Positions 4,843 to 39,381 of a stretch of 64,000 nucleotides of DNA are shown piece by piece. The first letter of the stretch is position 1; the number at the start of each line of letters is the position of its first letter. The stretch lies in assembly GCF_000487995.2 (NCBI RefSeq), contig NZ_CP097562.1, positions 2,043,001 to 2,107,000 on the forward strand. The letters are read 5' to 3'. The stretch comes from Mucispirillum schaedleri ASF457 (GTDB taxonomy: Bacteria; Chrysiogenota; Deferribacteres; Deferribacterales; Mucispirillaceae). The notes beneath the pieces were generated by a model. The model was not told the DNA's origin. It searched no databases and saw only the letters and a list, made by a program, of their open reading frames with translations. The translations under genes were made by a program, and so were the position numbers.

Positions 4843-4901
4843 TATGATATATTAATTACTTGCAGCAGGAACAGATGTAAAGTAAGTAAATAATGTTATA
4901 C

Positions 4902-5040
4902 TGAGCTTGATTTATAAGCGAAGTATCTAAAAATAGATAATTTAAATATATTATACATTGATGTAACATATATAATTTAGATTTTTCGCCTTTAAAAATT
5001 AGGTTCAAAATGACTTATATGATAAAATTTTTGGATAAGG
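4902..5040 (+). repeat. family A palindromic repeat
   Basis: The palindromic core at 4902-5006 has arms reading TGAGCTTGATTTATAAGCGA and, inverted, TCGCCTTTAAAAATTAGGTTCA, joined by an AT-rich centre. After the core, tttttggataagg (5028-5040) resembles the IS-like right end seen at other copies (tttttgggtaagtcca). The 371-bp gap 4843-5213 contains this repeat and the crcB remnant; in 4843-4901 I see nothing. Confidence 0.75.
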
Positions 5041-5043
5041 CTA

Positions 5044-7242: not shown

Positions 7243-7429
7243 AAACTTATCCTTAATATTTAACATATATTATATTTAATCTTAAATTAATTCAACAAAA
7301 AATATGCTTTATTGCATAAAATCTATGATACAAAAAATCAGATAATATCTTAATAGATTAGCAGTTTTTTTAAAAAACTGTTACTTGTAGTGAATATAGC
7401 AAGAGAATTTAAAATAAACTATGTTTTAC

Positions 7430-7731
7430 TGAGCCTTAAAAGCGAAGGAACTTATTTTATCCTTTATTTTCAAATTCATCCTTGAATTTGAAAAACCACG
7501 CTTGGTCGCAGTAAATGCTCCCATCGCTTACTTTCAGACGGGACTTCCTGTCCCTGCATTATCTTACTGAATCTGCTTCTATGGCATACTGAGCTTGATT
7601 TATAAGCGAAGTATCTAAAAACAGATAATTTAAATATATTATATATTGATGTAACATATATAAGTTAGATTTTTCGCCTTTAAAAATCAGGCTCATAATG
7701 ACATAATTGTAATAGTTTTTGGGTAAGTCCA
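7430..7731 (+). repeat. composite repeat, family B followed by family A (unit 1)
   Basis: Family B part (about 7430-7580): CCACGCTTGGTCGCAG, then ATCGCTTACTTTCAGACGGG and a small GGGAC-TTCCT-GTCCC hairpin. The family A palindrome follows (core 7590-7695), ending in tttttgggtaagtcca at 7731, a match to the IS-like end TGGACTTACCCAAAAA. There are no open frames of note. This is the first of two similar B+A units in tandem in the 870-bp gap 7243-8115; in 7243-7429 I see nothing recognisable. Confidence 0.75.
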
Positions 7732-7764: not shown

Positions 7765-8043
7765 TATTCTGAGCATAGCGAAGAATCTTAATTTATCCTT
7801 TATTAAAAAATATATTTATATATTTTTTAAACCACGCTATGCCGAAACAAGTTCGTCTATCGCTTACTTTCAGACGGCTCGTCCTGAGCCTGCTTCTATG
7901 TCTTGCTGAGCCAAGGGCTAAGCATCTAAAAAGCAGATAGTTTAAATATATCATATACTATTGCAATATATATAGTTCAGATTTTTCGCCTTTAAAAATC
8001 AGGCTCATAATGACTGATACTCAAAAATTTTTGGGTAAATCCA
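7765..8043 (+). repeat. composite repeat, family B followed by family A (unit 2)
   Basis: Second B+A unit, diverged from the first. Family B has ACCACGCTATGCCGAAACAA, then ATCGCTTACTTTCAGACGG; the A core spans 7907-8006 and ends with tttttgggtaaatcca (8043). The left edge carries a variant of the A arm (tctattctgagcatagcgaa). The tandem order B-A-B-A suggests duplication of a composite unit rather than independent insertions. Confidence 0.7.
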
Positions 8044-8717: not shown

Positions 8718-9885
8718 GTAAATTCTAAAAACGATTGCGAAAAAGTGAATAAATAAAAAAGTGGTTGTTAAAACTCTTTAAATAAAATAATATTTTTTAG
8801 CCAAAAAATAGAGTAAGAGAGGTAACAACCACAAATGGATACTACACCAAAAAATCGTAAAAATAAACACTTAAATGCATTTGAGTGTTATAAATTAGAA
8901 GGTCTGTTGAAATCCAAAGTTAGTGTGTTGGAAATAGCGTAGATATTATGCAGGTCTAAAAGCACGATATACCGAGAAATAAAGCGAGGGACAGTGGAAT
9001 TTCTCAACAGTGACTTGAGTGTAAGGAAAGAATATAGTGCATACTATTCTCTAAATATAAGGCAAGGTTTAATGAGTAAAACAGGTAGGAAATTACAATA
9101 TAACATTGAATATGGCTTATTAGACTATATACAGAGTAAGTTAGATGAGAAGTATTCCCCAGATGTTATATCTGGAGAGTTAAGGCATCAGTGTATATCA
9201 ACAATAAGTACCCAAACAATATATAACTATATATCATTAGGACTATTAGAAAGTATAGAATATAGAAAATATACTAAACAATGTAAAAGTAATCCACGAA
9301 CAGCCTATAATAATACACGCGGCAGAAGTATAGACGAACGACCATTTGAACTGAAAGAGCGACTATATGGCAATTGGGAGATGGATACAGTGGTGGGCAA
9401 ACAAGGCAGTAAATCAGCCTTACTGGTGCTTACAGAACGAGTATCACGGTTTGAAATAATAATCAAATTAAGAAATAAAACACAGAAAAGTATAATAGCA
9501 GCATTAGATAAGTTAGAAAGAAAGTATAAAGATAAATTCAGCTTAATATTTAAGAGCATAACAGTAGATAATGGTGTAGAATTTTTAGATATGGCAGGTT
9601 TAGAAAAATCAGTGTATGATAAAGTATCTAAACGAACAACTATTTATTATGCTCACCCTTATTGCTCTTGGGAGAGGGGAAGTAATGAGAATAATAATAA
9701 ACTTATAAGGAAATTTATTAAAAAGAAAACTGATATTAAAAACTTTTCAGCTGCTTATATTAAAAAAATACAAGACTGGATGAATAATTATCCTAGAAAA
9801 TTATTTAATTATAAATCGGCTAATGATATATTTTATGAGAACTTAAACAACTGCTTAAAATGTTGCAATCGTTTTTAGATTTTAC
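8718..9885 (+). mobile_element. IS30-family insertion sequence, 1168 bp
   Basis: Bounded by 21-bp inverted repeats with one mismatch: left 8718-8738 (GTAAATTCTAAAAACGATTGC) and right 9865-9885. The single transposase gene runs the full length, and its last codons lie within the right repeat. I see no clear 2-3 bp target duplication next to the repeats. The transposase has an in-frame stop, so the copy is probably not autonomous. Confidence 0.85.
8835..9878 (+). pseudogene. IS30-family transposase with in-frame TAG
   Basis: Reading from ATG 8835 gives 347 codons with one TAG at codon 36 (8940-8942). It interrupts the N-terminal helix-turn-helix at SVLEIA*ILCRSKSTIYREIKRG, where a sense codon is expected. 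After the stop the frame is intact. The DDE residues are visible as D in GNWEMDTVVG, D in TVDNGVEF and E in ERGSNENNN, the IS30 pattern. A shorter product could start at the GTG at 8994, but it would lack the DNA-binding domain. TAG is a normal stop elsewhere in this window, so read-through is not assumed. Confidence 0.85.
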
Positions 9886-13255: not shown

Positions 13256-13284
13256 AGATACTGAACTTACCCAAAAATTTTGAA

Positions 13285-14085
13285 CTAAGCCACTAAATAA
13301 ATTTCTTTTTCCTGTAAAGGTGTAAGTCCATTAGCTTTTATTCTGTAATTATTATAGAAATCAATATATTTTTCAAGTTCATATTTAAACTGTTCTATAT
13401 TTTTGAATTTGTTAATATAAACCAATTCACATTTTAAAGTAGCAAAGAAACTTTCCATAACAGCATTATCATAGCAGTTGCCACGCCTTGACATACTCTG
13501 CTCTATATTATTTTCCTTTAATAACTTTCTAAATTGATTAGCCTGATATAATATACCCTGGTCTGAATGTATCATTAACCCTGTTGTATCTTTTGTTTTA
13601 TCTATTGCCTGTTTTAAATTATCTATTACCATTTCTTCATTATTATATTTGCTTACACTGTATGCTGTTATTTCTCTGTTATACAAATCCATTATTGCTG
13701 ATAAATACACCTTTTCATTATTAATTTTTATCTCTGCCACATCTGTTACCCATTTTAAACATGGTCTCTCACTTGTAAAGGCTCTGTTTAATTTATTGCT
13801 GCATATATGACTTACTCTGCCTTGTTTATACCTTTTCTTAACCCTGATTAGTGATGAAATTTTTAGTTCTTTCATCAATTTATACACTGTCTTCCTGTCA
13901 TAAGTATAACCCAGTTTCTCTAATACCTTTGATATTCTTGGATAACCATAAGTCTTGTTAGATTTTTCATATATTTCTAATATAGATGTCTTGACTTCTG
14001 CATATTTATCTAATGCAGCAGGCTTTTTAACATTATAATAGTAAGTGCTTCTTTTCATATTACTCACAGACAACAGGATATCCAA
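13285..14085 (-). CDS. IS3-family transposase OrfB (catalytic)
   Basis: 266 aa from its first ATG. It contains the N-terminal HTH_21-like region (KTYGYPRISKVLEKLGYTYDRKTVYKLM) and an rve integrase core with D in WVTDVAEI, D in IHSDQGI and E in AVMESFF. The frame is open upstream of this ATG through the end of orfA, so the native product is probably an OrfAB fusion made by -1 frameshifting at 14121-14126. This is the only full-length OrfB among the copies here and the likely source of transposase acting on the IS-like MITE ends. Confidence 0.93.
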   Translation of the reverse strand: MDILLSVSNMKRSTYYYNVKKPAALDKYAEVKTSILEIYEKSNKTYGYPRISKVLEKLGYTYDRKTVYKLMKELKISSLIRVKKRYKQGRVSHICSNKLNRAFTSERPCLKWVTDVAEIKINNEKVYLSAIMDLYNREITAYSVSKYNNEEMVIDNLKQAIDKTKDTTGLMIHSDQGILYQANQFRKLLKENNIEQSMSRRGNCYDNAVMESFFATLKCELVYINKFKNIEQFKYELEKYIDFYNNYRIKANGLTPLQEKEIYLVA

Positions 14086-14111
14086 ACTGTAATACAGCCT
14101 TAATGCAGTTA

Positions 14112-14669
14112 TTATTTGTGCTTTTTCTGTTGAACTCTCTGTTCCTTTGACTGCATTAAGGCTTCCAGCTTTTTTAAATATGCATTCTCCGCTGACTTGT
14201 AATAAAGCTCTTTTTCAAGCTCTGATATTCTCTCTTTTAATTGTCTTACTTCTTCACTATCATCTGATTTAGTGAGTTTAATATCAGTAGAGTTTGAGTG
14301 TTTACTCTTTTTACTGTTCGGGATATTCTTATCTGACATATTATCTCCAATAAACTTACTGCAAAACTTATTCCAGTCATATATTACTGATGCTGATGGT
14401 ATATTAAAATATAGTGCTGTCTGCTCATAACTTAAATTATTTGATGCCTTATAAGTTAACACATTTAATTTAAAATCTCTACTATATTCATTGCGGGTAA
14501 AGCTATGATGTAAACTTGATTCGCCTGAATGCTTATATCTGTTATAGATATTACATATTACTCCTTTATGAATTTTACAGCATCTTGATAATTCACTGGC
14601 ACTCATTATTCCATTTTCTATGACTGTTACTAGATATTTCTTAAACTCATAGCTGTATTTTCTTGCCAT
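14112..14669 (-). CDS. IS3-family OrfA (DNA-binding)
   Basis: 185 aa from the ATG at 14667-14669, which has AAGGAG 5 nt upstream; a GTG two codons earlier overlaps that site. It has an N-terminal helix-turn-helix (MSASELSRCCKIHKGVICNIYNRY), a second HTH-like region (ASNNLSYEQTALYFNIPSASVIYDW) and a C-terminal leucine-zipper coiled coil (VRQLKERISELEKELYYKS). Near the 3' end, codons CAG AAA AAG CAC (AAAAAG at 14121-14126) form a slippery site; shifting -1 enters the orfB frame without a stop. Confidence 0.9.
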   Translation of the reverse strand: MARKYSYEFKKYLVTVIENGIMSASELSRCCKIHKGVICNIYNRYKHSGESSLHHSFTRNEYSRDFKLNVLTYKASNNLSYEQTALYFNIPSASVIYDWNKFCSKFIGDNMSDKNIPNSKKSKHSNSTDIKLTKSDDSEEVRQLKERISELEKELYYKSAENAYLKKLEALMQSKEQRVQQKKHK

Positions 14670-14799
14670 ATACACTCCTTATATGGCTAGTACAACTTTT
14701 TCGGGTAAGTTCATACTTCCGCCAAAGGCTCAGTATGACCAACAGCTTTCATACCAAATATCCATATAATATTAGCTTAAAAAATAGGTGTATGCAAAA

Positions 14800-23077: not shown

Positions 23078-23502
23078 TGAACTTACCCAAAAAAAGTTGT
23101 ACTAGCCATATAAGGAATGTATATGGCAAGAAAATACAGTTATGAGTTTAAGAAATATCTAGTAACAATATTAGAAAGCGGTATAATGAGTGCCAGTGAA
23201 TTATCAAGACGCTGTAAAATCCATAAAGGAGTGATATGTAATATCTATAACAGATATAAGCATTCAGGCGAATCAAGTTTACATCATAGCTTTACCCGCA
23301 ATGAATATAGTAGAGCATTTAAATTAAATAAAGTGATATTGAGCCTGCTTTTGTGTCATACTGAGCTTGAAATATAGCGAAGTATCTAAAAAAGCAGATA
23401 GTTTAAGTAGATTATACACTACTGCAATATATATAATTTAGATTTTTCGCCTATAAAATCAGGCTCACAATGGCTGTATTCTAGGTTTTTTGTGTAAGTC
23501 TA
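23078..23502 (+). mobile_element. IS3 copy 2: IS left end fused to a family A repeat
   Basis: It starts with TGAACTTACCC and the first about 245 bp of the IS, through the orfA codons for EYSRAFKLN (to about 23326). It then changes abruptly to a family A palindrome (core 23362-23466) and ends with ttttttgtgtaagtcta (23502), an IS-like right end. orfB is absent. The same architecture, further shrunk, occurs at 34015-34252, so this looks like an ancestor-type MITE and not a random truncation. 23503-23568 holds nothing else. Confidence 0.7.
23123..23326 (+). pseudogene. IS3 OrfA, N-terminal fragment
   Basis: About 68 codons matching copy 1 OrfA (MARKYSYEFKKYLVTILESG ... SSLHHSFTRNEYSRAFKLN), with AAGGA before the ATG. 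The frame then runs into repeat sequence and stops at 23375-23377. The HTH is intact but the dimerisation and catalytic parts are missing. Confidence 0.85.
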
Positions 23503-33348: not shown

Positions 33349-33738
33349 ATGTCTAACTATAACTACGGAACAGGTAGAAGAAAAACATCAGTTTCTCGTG
33401 TTTTTATCAAACCGGGAAAAGGTGATATTAAAATCAATAATAAAACACTTGAAGAATACTTTGAGCGTATGACACTTCGTCAAATAGTTTTACAGCCACT
33501 TGCTTTATTAAATCAAGAAGGTAAATTTGATTTATATATTACAGTAGCAGGTGGTGGTAAATCAGGTCAGGCTGGTGCAGTTCGTCATGGTCTTGCAAGA
33601 GCTTTAGAACAATTTAACCCAGAATTTCGTTCTGAAATGAAAAAAGCAGGCTTTATGACAAGGGATTCTCGTATGGTTGAAAGAAAAAAATATGGGAAAC
33701 CAAAAGCAAGAAAAAGCGACCAATACTCAAAACGCTAA
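33349..33738 (+). CDS. rpsI: 30S ribosomal protein S9
   Basis: 129 aa. [14 protein letters not shown] at the N-terminus and [18 protein letters not shown] at the C-terminus are typical; the C-terminal tail contacts the P-site tRNA. AGGAG lies 8 nt before the ATG. It is paired with rplM. Confidence 0.97.
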
Positions 33739-33890: not shown

Positions 33891-34014
33891 ATGGAGCAGC
33901 ATATCTGCGGTTTAAAATAAAGTATTCTACATTTTTTAATATCATGTAAAAAATAAGTGTATTTTCTTATAAAATACTTGCAATTTATAAGCATTGCATA
34001 TATTACATTAAAGA

Positions 34015-34252
34015 TGGACTTACCCAAAAAAATTAGATTAATCCATATAATTAATCTTATATGGAAATAAAATAATGAATACAGCAATAGCATTTAAGCT
34101 GAATTATGTCTAATATTCAGCCTGAATTATAAGCGAAGTATTTAAAAAATGAGATAATTTAAATATATTATGTGTTAATGTAATATAAATAATTTAGATT
34201 TGCCTTTAAAATCAGGTGCAGAATGACTTATGACAAAATTTTAGTAAGTCCA
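34015..34252 (+). mobile_element. MITE with IS3-like ends and 3-bp target duplication
   Basis: 238 bp. The left end is TGGACTTACCCAAAAAAA and the right end ttttagtaagtcca. The direct repeat AGA lies immediately outside both ends (34012-34014, 34253-34255). The first 55 bp align with the IS3 left end through the orfA start (CCATATAA...TATATGG). AATGAATACAG...GCATTTAA then matches the orfA NEYSRAFKLN region, and a family A palindrome (34118-34220) follows. There is no coding capacity. It is inferred to be moved in trans by the IS transposase. Confidence 0.8.
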
Positions 34253-34280
34253 AGATTAAGTTAGTATGTGGAGAAAATTA

Positions 34281-35849
34281 ATGAGTCTTATTACAGATAC
34301 TCTTAATAAAATGAAAAAAGAGCAGGGCAGTGAAGAAAATGATGAAAAAATGATGGCACCTCCTGCTTTGCGTAATGCTGTTATTAATACTAAAAAATAT
34401 CAGGAATTTGTCAAAAATGCAGAAATTAAAGATATTAATGGCAACAAAGCTCCATTAAAAGGTTTTGTTACTGTAAGTGTTGTTTTATTTGCAGTTATTG
34501 TGGCAGCTTTGATTTATTTTCTTAATAAAGAAGATAATACACTTATTAAACATGCAGGTATTGTTTCAAATAATCAGCAGTCTGCACAGGCAGTAAATAG
34601 TAGTAATAATGTAAAATCTCTTGGTAAGCCATATAATCCTGATCTCCAAAATAATCAGCAAAAGCAGACAGCAGTATCAGCTGATATAAATAAGAAACCT
34701 GCTCCTGATCAAAATATGCAGGGTAATAATAATACAGATACTCAGCCTTTTAATGATATGCAGGGCAGGCAGACTCAAGCTCAAATGGTATCTATGCCTG
34801 ACAGCCATCAAGAGAGTAATGTAAAAAAAGAAAACACTAAAACACAGGTAAAACAGGATCCTGTTAATATTATTCCTGCAAATCAGCTTTTTATTGTTAC
34901 ACCACAGTCTGCACCAGTAAATAATGAGATTACTGAAAAGCCTGCACAAAGTAATTTATCACCTGCTGTTAATACTAAACAAAATAATAAACCTGCAGCA
35001 GAAAAACAAAATATTTCATCTAATGATAAAGCTGAAAATGGAAGTAAAGTAAATTTTGCAGAAATCAGTCAGGAAAATATTAAAAAAGCTAATGAATACA
35101 CCCAAAAACAGGTAGATGAAGAAAAAGCACGAGCTGAAAAAAATGCTCAGGCAATTCAAGAAAATTATGCAGTTAATAATCAAAATTCATCGCTTAATAA
35201 AAGCAGTATAAAAGATTATGCAGATAAAATAGAAATAGCAGAAGTGAAAGCTATTAAAACAAAAGACCCGTCAGGCACAGTTTCAGCAAGCACAATTTCA
35301 TTATATAACCAGTATGTAACAACAGGTAATAAAGCTAAAAATGAAGGTCAGTATGAAAGAGCTATAGAATATTATACAAATGCTCTTGCTTTGAATAAAA
35401 ATGATGTATTATCAGCAAATATTGCAAATATGTATTTAGAGTTAAAAAATCCTAATATGGCATTTCAAGTGGTAGTGAGAAACGGAATGACAGATGCTAA
35501 ATTAATCAGCTCACTGGCTGTCCGTATGGTTAATTCTAAATATTTTCTTGAAAGCAGTAAATTATTGCAGTATGCAAACACATTAGAAAAATCATCATAT
35601 ATTTTATTTGCCAATGGTTACTATTCACAATCACAGGGTCAGTATGATGCTGCTGTCCAATTTTATAAAGATGCAATGGCTGTAAATCCTGCTGATGTAA
35701 GTTCAGCTTATTATGCTGCTCTTTGTTTTGAAGAGCAGGGTAAAAACAGTGATGCTGTGGAAATGTATAAATATATTATCAATAACAGCTCATCACCTGA
35801 AAATATGAAAAAACAGGCATCATCAAAAGTAAAAAAACTTGGCAGTTAA
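34281..35849 (+). CDS. TPR membrane protein, MshN/GspB-like architecture
   Basis: 522 aa from the ATG at 34281 (GGAGA 6-7 nt upstream; a longer frame from 34266 adds five residues). A short cytoplasmic N-terminus (MSLITDTLNKMKKEQ) is reminiscent of the opening of MshN/ExeB-type proteins. A single TM helix (about 62-82) follows, then a long Gln/Asn-rich linker (85-330) and a C-terminal TPR region (about 345-520) with NEGQYERAIEYYTNALALNKND and QGQYDAAVQFYKDAMAVNPAD. This suggests a periplasmic scaffold for a pilus or secretion assembly, but no such genes are adjacent; prepilin peptidase lies 16.6 kb away (52406). Confidence 0.75.
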   Translation: MSLITDTLNKMKKEQGSEENDEKMMAPPALRNAVINTKKYQEFVKNAEIKDINGNKAPLKGFVTVSVVLFAVIVAALIYFLNKEDNTLIKHAGIVSNNQQSAQAVNSSNNVKSLGKPYNPDLQNNQQKQTAVSADINKKPAPDQNMQGNNNTDTQPFNDMQGRQTQAQMVSMPDSHQESNVKKENTKTQVKQDPVNIIPANQLFIVTPQSAPVNNEITEKPAQSNLSPAVNTKQNNKPAAEKQNISSNDKAENGSKVNFAEISQENIKKANEYTQKQVDEEKARAEKNAQAIQENYAVNNQNSSLNKSSIKDYADKIEIAEVKAIKTKDPSGTVSASTISLYNQYVTTGNKAKNEGQYERAIEYYTNALALNKNDVLSANIANMYLELKNPNMAFQVVVRNGMTDAKLISSLAVRMVNSKYFLESSKLLQYANTLEKSSYILFANGYYSQSQGQYDAAVQFYKDAMAVNPADVSSAYYAALCFEEQGKNSDAVEMYKYIINNSSSPENMKKQASSKVKKLGS

Positions 35850-37331: not shown

Positions 37332-39169
37332 TGAAAATGTTTTTTAAAGCAAATAATTTATTAATTTTAAAAATAATATTAACAATATATACATTGTATT
37401 CATTAAAATATTTTTATCGTTTAAAGCATATAGAATCAGAATTTTATATGAATATGACATTCATATTTATTATTGCAGCAGTTTATTTATTGATTAATTA
37501 TGCAGTAAATTTATTAAAAAATGGAATAGATAGAAGATTACTTATAATATCTTTAATAGTGGGTTTATATTTTGCATTTGCTGCAGTGCTTGGAGCATAT
37601 TATGAAGGAGCTGTAAAAGGTGAAAGGTATGCTGAAGTGTTAGATTTTACACTTAATGACTTTACAAACTCAATGATATATATTCCAGCTATATGGTTTT
37701 TATTTTCAAGCTGCATATTTTTTATCTATATTCAAATCCCAAAAATGTATAATAATTATATAAACCAAAATAGTTCATATACAGAAATGCCAAAAATGTT
37801 TAATTCTATATATAAAATATGGCTTTTTATTTTTATTTGCTGGCTGCCGTATTTTATTTTACTGTATCCCGGATATTTATATTGGGATGCAGGTTCGCAA
37901 ATATCTCAGTTATTTACAGGCAGATTTAATACTCATCATCCTATACTAACTACATTATATATGTATTTTATATACATATATTATAAAATATCAAATAACG
38001 GTATATTAAGTATAGCTTTATTTATAATTATTTTTCAAATGATACCGTTATCTTTTATTTATGCTTATATGATAAATAAATTAAATAAGATATATAATGT
38101 AAATAAAATGACAGTTGTATTTTTAATATTATTTGCTGCATTATATCCTGTTAATCCTGTAATATCCATTATAGTTGAAAAAGGAATATTATTTATATTT
38201 TTTTTAATATTATTTATTGTTAAAATAATAGAATTAGTTGAAAATATAGAGCTAAAAGGGCAGAAAAAATATTTTATACAGCTTATTATTATAGGAATTA
38301 TACTATGCCTTTCAAGGAATAATGTTATTTATGGATTTATTATTGTTATGCCAATTATGTTACTGTTTGCAAAAAGGTATAGAAAATATATATTTGTATC
38401 ATTTGCAGGTATTTTTATTGGATATATACTTTTAAATACTGCAATTATTAAAATAACAGGTGCAAATAAAGGTGAATTTAGAGAAAGTATGTCTATGCCT
38501 ATACAACAGCTTGCAAGAGTTTATAAATATCATAAAGATACATTAAATGCAGATGAAATTAAATTTATTGAAAAAATTGTAAAAAATAAAAATGATTTGA
38601 ATAATTATCTGCCAAAAAGAGCTGATAATGTAAAAAACTACACAAATTCACACTTTTTTAAGACAAAAGAATTTATAACAGGTTATATGTAGCTTGGTTT
38701 AAAATATACTGCCAGCTATTTAAATTCATTTTTAATTATGTCAAGTGCATTTTTATATCCTTTTAATAATAGTTTATGGTTTGAAGGACTGCATATAGTA
38801 ATTCCAAATAATAAATTTATAAATGCCAGCAAATCAGATTATTATAAACATAAAAATAAGTTACTAAGTTCTTATTTGTCAAAAACACAGAGTTTTGTAA
38901 AACAAAATAATTCAATGTCAGCATTTATTTTAGTTAATCAAAGTATATTATTTTATATTCTGGTTTTTGCATTTATTTATTTTATATATAAAAAAGTATA
39001 TAAGAATGCTTTTATACTACTTATCCCCTTATGCTATGCAGCTACATTATTGTTAGGTCCTATAATTTATTTTAGATATACTTATTATTTAATGGTTATT
39101 TTTCCTATTATTATTATGATGCTTGCAAATAATAATATGGATTTATCTAAAAATTTTATGCAGCAGTAA
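37331..39169 (+). pseudogene. polytopic glucosyltransferase-like membrane protein with in-frame TAG
   Basis: 612 codons in one frame with a single TAG at 38690-38692 (FITGYM*LGLKYTASYLNSFLIMSSAF), where a Trp codon (TGG) would fit. More than ten TM helices are visible. The first large loop contains LLYPGYLYWDAGSQISQLF, and a further loop has FNTHHPILTTLYMYFIY, as in DUF6020-type and GtrII-type proteins that transfer a lipid-linked sugar to a surface glycan. It is the type-specific third gene expected after gtrB and gtrA. The upstream part (453 aa) and downstream part (143 aa from ATG 38738) are both well preserved, so the mutation is recent. Confidence 0.8.
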
Positions 39170-39172
39170 TTT

Positions 39173-39275
39173 TGAGCCTGATTTATGGGCGAAAAATCTA
39201 AATTATATATATTGCAGTATAGTATAATATATTTAAATTGTCTTATCTTTTTAGTTACTTCGCCTTTCAGGCTCA
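39173..39275 (-). repeat. family A palindrome, complete
   Basis: One of the cleanest copies. The left arm is TGAGCCTGATTTATGGGCGA and the right arm TTCGCCTTTCAGGCTCA, with an AT-rich centre (attgcagtatagtataatat). It begins 4 bp after the stop of the glucosyltransferase-like gene, so it may serve as its terminator. Confidence 0.8.
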
Positions 39276-39381
39276 GTATAACATAATCGCAACAGCTACT
39301 ATCATTAATAAGTTGTTTTATACTCATAGTTATTGTGTTGAACTATATATAATTATCACAATAATTCACATATTGTCATTT

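Follow-up and report, generated by a model that had tools for sequence, protein, structure and literature searches.

A MITE-type insertion with IS3-family ends around a REPIN/BIME-like palindrome in Mucispirillum schaedleri

The insertion between rpsI and a TPR-repeat gene

The window studied here is a stretch of 64,000 nucleotides from the genome of the gut bacterium Mucispirillum schaedleri ASF457, and all positions refer to it unless marked as genome positions. It holds, at 33349-33738, a gene that we take from its sequence to be rpsI, followed by a TPR-repeat gene, relatives of which were found in Mucispirillum assemblies only. The leader of the TPR-repeat gene contains an insertion of 238 bp, composed as follows:

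34012-34014, unstranded: AGA target duplication, left copy
34015-34252, + strand: MITE-type insertion, 238 bp, delimited by sequence, terminal inverted repeats, target duplication and empty-site comparison
34015-34074, + strand: IS3-like left end, pairing with bases 1-58 of the resident IS, orfA ATG included
34072-34108, + strand: orfA remnant (IS about 222-252), joined directly to the core, with modest statistics against the long form
34109-34229, + strand: REPIN/BIME-like core, A+T-rich palindrome flanked by two inverted hairpin arms
34230-34252, + strand: IS3-like right end (AAAATTTTAGTAAGTCCA)
34253-34255, unstranded: AGA target duplication, right copy
34266-35849, + strand: TPR-repeat gene whose leader holds the element

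The insertion has TG..CA inverted ends, and its junctions (marked by slashes) read ...TTACATTAAAGA/TGGACTTACCCA...TTAGTAAGTCCA/AGATTAAG or, in a longer reading, ...ATTAAAGA/TGGACTTACCCAAAAAAATTAG...GACAAAATTTTAGTAAGTCCA/AGATTAAG. The terminal inverted repeat is perfect over its outer 9 bp and agrees at 12 of 15 positions overall. When all 63,497 start positions of the window are considered, the element at 34015 is alone in combining a perfect 9-bp terminal repeat with a spacing of 238 bp and a 3-bp target duplication. The same gap between rpsI and the TPR gene aligns cleanly in four close Mucispirillum relatives (L090-L093), where it lacks the insert and carries a single AGA, which demonstrates that the 238-bp insertion is real; the insert is likewise absent from three more diverged sequences (L094, L095 and L096). 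An earlier note on this DNA, which had proposed a MITE at 34015-34252 flanked by AGA on both sides, thus had the coordinates exactly right, and the single AGA of the empty-site alleles identifies the repeat as a true target duplication.

The element contains no complete open reading frame of at least 60 aa, nor does it hold a terminator or promoter beyond what chance would give. The insertion lengthens the TPR leader by 241 bases and directly follows a conserved stretch with a promoter-like TTGCAA-17-TATTAC pair, read by eye and not listed by the promoter scan. We also considered whether the longer leader hides the ribosome-binding site, which is not predicted: the unpaired share of the Shine-Dalgarno stretch is put at about 95% for the leader lacking the insert and at about 80% for the leader carrying it. 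The insert probably has little effect on initiation of TPR translation.

The ends resemble a resident IS3-family element

The resident IS3-family element has one full-length copy in the window:

13262-14713, - strand: full-length IS3-family element, inserted in a degenerate core arm, target duplication TAC (GTA on the other strand)

It is 1452 bp long, has TGAACTTACCC ends and encodes OrfA and OrfB of the IS3 family (NF033516, 1.5e-83) in intact frames, between which an A6G slippery site is found at nt 539 of the IS. The genome contains 12 full-length copies at 99-100% identity and one at 86%. This element (13262-14713 and its kin) is the likely source of transposase for the insertion; the remaining PF00665 hits fall into lower-scoring groups, and one of these may be the source instead. 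Two further integrase-type transposase families (PF00665), one with 25 hits of 319 aa and the other with 9 hits of 311 aa, are present in many identical copies, one of which sits in the window at 8994-9878.

The left 95 bp or so of the insertion and its last 25 bp or so resemble the resident IS, with a palindrome of about 125 bp between them. Bases 1-60 match the start of the IS through the orfA ATG, as the earlier note had stated, with 45 of 60 positions identical (BLAST, E 6e-7). The note had aligned a later segment with the orfA NEYSRAFKLN region; against the intact IS this match (bases 58-95) does not rise above shuffles, whereas against the 425-bp long form described below an orfA remnant is supported (score 16; 5 of 500 shuffles scored at least as high). 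Similarly, its statement that the ends are one base off those of the resident IS (TGAACTTACCC) is correct for the left terminal repeat but not for the right end, which reads TTAGTAAGTCCA rather than GGTAAGTCCA, so that only the outer 9 bp of the repeat are perfect (12 of 15) and the CCC block is lost there. The deviation from the IS at base 3 of the ends and the several bases missing from the right end count against the explanation that we prefer below.

The core is an independent intergenic repeat

When the interior of the element was compared with the IS by BLAST, significant matches were confined to the end sequences and none was obtained for the core of about 125 bp. The palindrome reported in the earlier note is real (fold z -4.1), but rather than being a derived part of the IS it belongs to a separate repeat found throughout the genome. 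Its left arm reads ATACT-GA-GC..loop..GC-GA-AGTAT and its right arm, in reverse, ATTTT-GA-GCC..loop..GGC-GA-AAAAT, which is the same hairpin design. Compensated stem changes in the hairpin arm exceed those in all 500 shuffles, the counts being somewhat inflated by 3 of the 57 rows, which represent neighbouring repeats or the other arm. Support is limited to this short arm; applied to the full 150-nt core, RNAalifold yielded no conserved structure. Kindred hairpins with ATTCT/AGAAT and ATTAT/ATAAT stems adjoin some core copies, and a further Mucispirillum genome (L133, L136) has the core hairpins as inverted doublets that lack IS ends. Of 51 genomes from the phylum, 4 contain the hairpin CTGAGCGNAGCGAAGAATC, which shares the tandem G.A design of the core arms and reaches as many as 9 copies (genome positions 984479, 1042493 and 2179979; also in G004, G026 and G041).

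BLAST found about 45 copies of the core in the 2.35-Mb single-contig genome, and a model built from 29 copies found at least 150, a lower bound. Genome sequence was examined in stretches around members of the repeat family and IS copies. None of the 150 copies listed lies inside an open reading frame of 120 aa or more, compared with 238 of 400 random positions. The core thus fits the REPIN/BIME layout in being an inverted hairpin pair, of high copy number (at least 150) and intergenic. An IS3-like right end accompanies 81 of the 150 listed copies and is lacking from about 69; a convincing IS-like left end (score of at least 22, reached by 1 of 750 shuffles) was found upstream of 18. Copies with a right end in the window, besides the element itself, include:

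4894-5043, + strand: core copy with IS-like right end
7582-7731, + strand: core copy with IS-like right end
7899-8043, + strand: core copy with IS-like right end
39138-39283, - strand: core copy with IS-like right end
23078-23502, + strand: 425-bp long form, IS bases 1-251 followed by core and IS-like right end

From these data we conclude that the core of about 125 bp is an independent repeat and not IS-derived. The element could in principle be a simple MITE, that is, an internal deletion derivative of the IS within which the palindrome arose, and the IS-like character of the left end, the orfA remnant and the right end agrees with such an origin. This view is nevertheless strongly disfavoured, and we regard it as very improbable, by the lack of a significant IS match in the core, by the roughly 69 of 150 listed core copies without an IS right end, and by the hairpin doublets without IS ends in another species. 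Of the proposal in the earlier note, the MITE with IS3-family ends therefore stands and the simple deletion derivative, with its middle of about 125 bp that has no significant IS match, does not; the note had spotted the insertion correctly, and the interior was beyond recognition from its reader's view.

Age and distribution of the family

Both IS-like ends are present on about 14 core copies, so other paired-end copies, for which the earlier note had proposed a genome-wide search, do exist. Exact 3-bp duplications are retained in only 3 of them, the element at 34015 included, which counts against the explanation preferred below. In the long form (23078-23502), IS bases 1-251 are collinear with the core. 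At genome position 393846 relatives lack the insert, with a flank too diverged for the junction to be read; at 1554675 and 571053 no junction-spanning match was obtained in any relative.

The mean pairwise identity of core copies is 75%, and that to the nearest neighbour has a median of 86% (84% for the copy at 34015). The copies are thus old and degenerate, and none is nearly identical to the 34015 copy, which likewise counts against the explanation preferred below; present mobility is not indicated. Core matches were detected in 3 of 9 other genomes of the genus (6, 4 and 4), so that the expansion is lineage-specific, allowing for some incomplete assemblies.

Two arrangements around the core may be mentioned here. 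Genome positions 2001991-2003270 hold a tandem array, repeating every 347 bp or so, in which core units take turns with the final 70 bp of the IS. Another conserved repeat (AAATCACGCTCTGCCGAAACAAGTTCG.CTATCGCTTACT...) is frequently the immediate left neighbour of the core (e.g. window 7400-7600, genome 1052666 and 438462) and looks like a further unit of an intergenic mosaic.

The IS targets the core

Core sequence was found within 10 bp of the junction for 9 of 13 full-length IS copies; the corresponding figure for positions drawn at random from the window is 11 of 500 (Fisher p 2e-11). A tenth copy, that at 13262-14713, lies in a degenerate arm (GGCGGAAGTA/GTATCT) that the core model did not score, and for several copies the point of insertion is within or next to GCGAAGTATCTAAA. 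The IS prefers the core as a landing site. Four IS copies (genome 770110, 918314, 1234571 and 1826289) lack a matching 3-bp duplication and have the core at one or both flanks, suggestive of recombination or deletion between repeats.

This preference also fits a view in which it is the core that moves, as a REPIN driven by some RAYT-like activity, with the IS ends left behind as scars of IS insertions into it. The core is far commoner than the paired-end copies, and it is always intergenic among the 150 copies listed, which is in line with such a view. Yet the bounds of the insertion at 34015-34252, as fixed by the empty site and the AGA, coincide with the IS-like ends and not with the core, and no match to Y1_Tnp (PF01797), the RAYT gene, was found in the genome. 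We therefore hold this account of the insertion to be improbable; the core's own spread could still have involved a RAYT-like activity.

Formation and dispersal of the chimeric unit

The reading that we consider probable is that of a non-autonomous MITE-type insertion in which IS3-family ends enclose a REPIN/BIME-like palindrome, joined and moved in trans as set out here. The IS, prone to land in the intergenic palindrome, would have become fused to one palindrome copy through recombination or an internal deletion, giving a product with left inverted repeat, orfA remnant, palindrome and right inverted repeat, represented by the 425-bp long form. Later internal deletion may then have produced the 238-bp form and others of about 210 bp, in an order suggested by the long form itself. 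The IS3 transposase, acting in trans, would recognise the TG..CA ends and insert the unit with a 3-bp duplication; the IS-like ends and this duplication point to such dispersal.

A single local history could also leave a duplication and two ends: a full IS might have inserted with the AGA duplication and lost its interior in situ, never having moved as a unit. Local loss, however, brings in no core, yet the core lies inside the ends, and unlinked loci share both this arrangement and its junctions, so that we regard in situ decay as the least probable of the explanations weighed here. The identical succession of IS left end, orfA remnant, core and IS right end at unlinked loci indicates instead that the chimeric unit was formed first and dispersed afterwards. 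The paired-end copies are best read as a mostly old MITE family that combines IS3 ends with a REPIN/BIME-like core and was once moved in trans by the IS3 transposase.

Relation to known systems

MITEs that a parental IS mobilises have been described from bacteria, e.g. MITEPsy1 (PMC3189936) and MITECca01 of an IS982-family IS (PMC9769881). The element at 34015 resembles these in being short and non-coding, in sharing terminal inverted repeats with a resident IS, and in its short target duplication and several copies; it differs in combining IS3-family ends with an independently high-copy repeat, and in being known from sequence alone. A 2024 review of prokaryotic MITEs (PMC10969869) makes no mention of IS3, and the paper on the M. 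schaedleri genome (PMC5285517) reports transposases and mobile elements in its main text, where neither a MITE nor IS3 is named.

Targeting of REP repeats is known for the IS3-family elements IS1397, ISKpn1 and ISPsy8, according to a passage in PMC1525189, and like these the resident IS is concentrated in an intergenic palindromic repeat. In contrast to what that passage describes, copies of the target repeat are here enclosed by the IS's own ends. REPIN and BIME repeats are high-copy, intergenic, inverted hairpin pairs (PMC3116915, PMC2817692). The core shares all of these features, but no RAYT gene accompanies it, its hairpin sequence is another one with G.A/A.G mismatches, and part of its copies have IS3-like ends. 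A search of open papers for the hairpin sequence ATTCTGAGCGAAGCGAAGAAT gave no hit. The kind of element is therefore known, and IS3 ends around a REPIN-like core that doubles as IS target are an uncommon variant.

In this bacterial MITE, for which the empty site is verified, the cargo is a REP-like palindrome also targeted by the parent IS, and the case joins two phenomena that are usually treated apart, IS-derived MITEs and REP-targeting IS elements. It is conceivable, albeit rather unlikely, that the IS3 element, by way of its own ends, disperses non-autonomous copies of its preferred target palindrome. If the IS does spread its own landing pads in this manner, MITE and IS would reinforce each other in intergenic space while genes are largely spared, which would help to explain both the multiplication of the IS in a small genome and the dispersal of a REP-like repeat without a RAYT.
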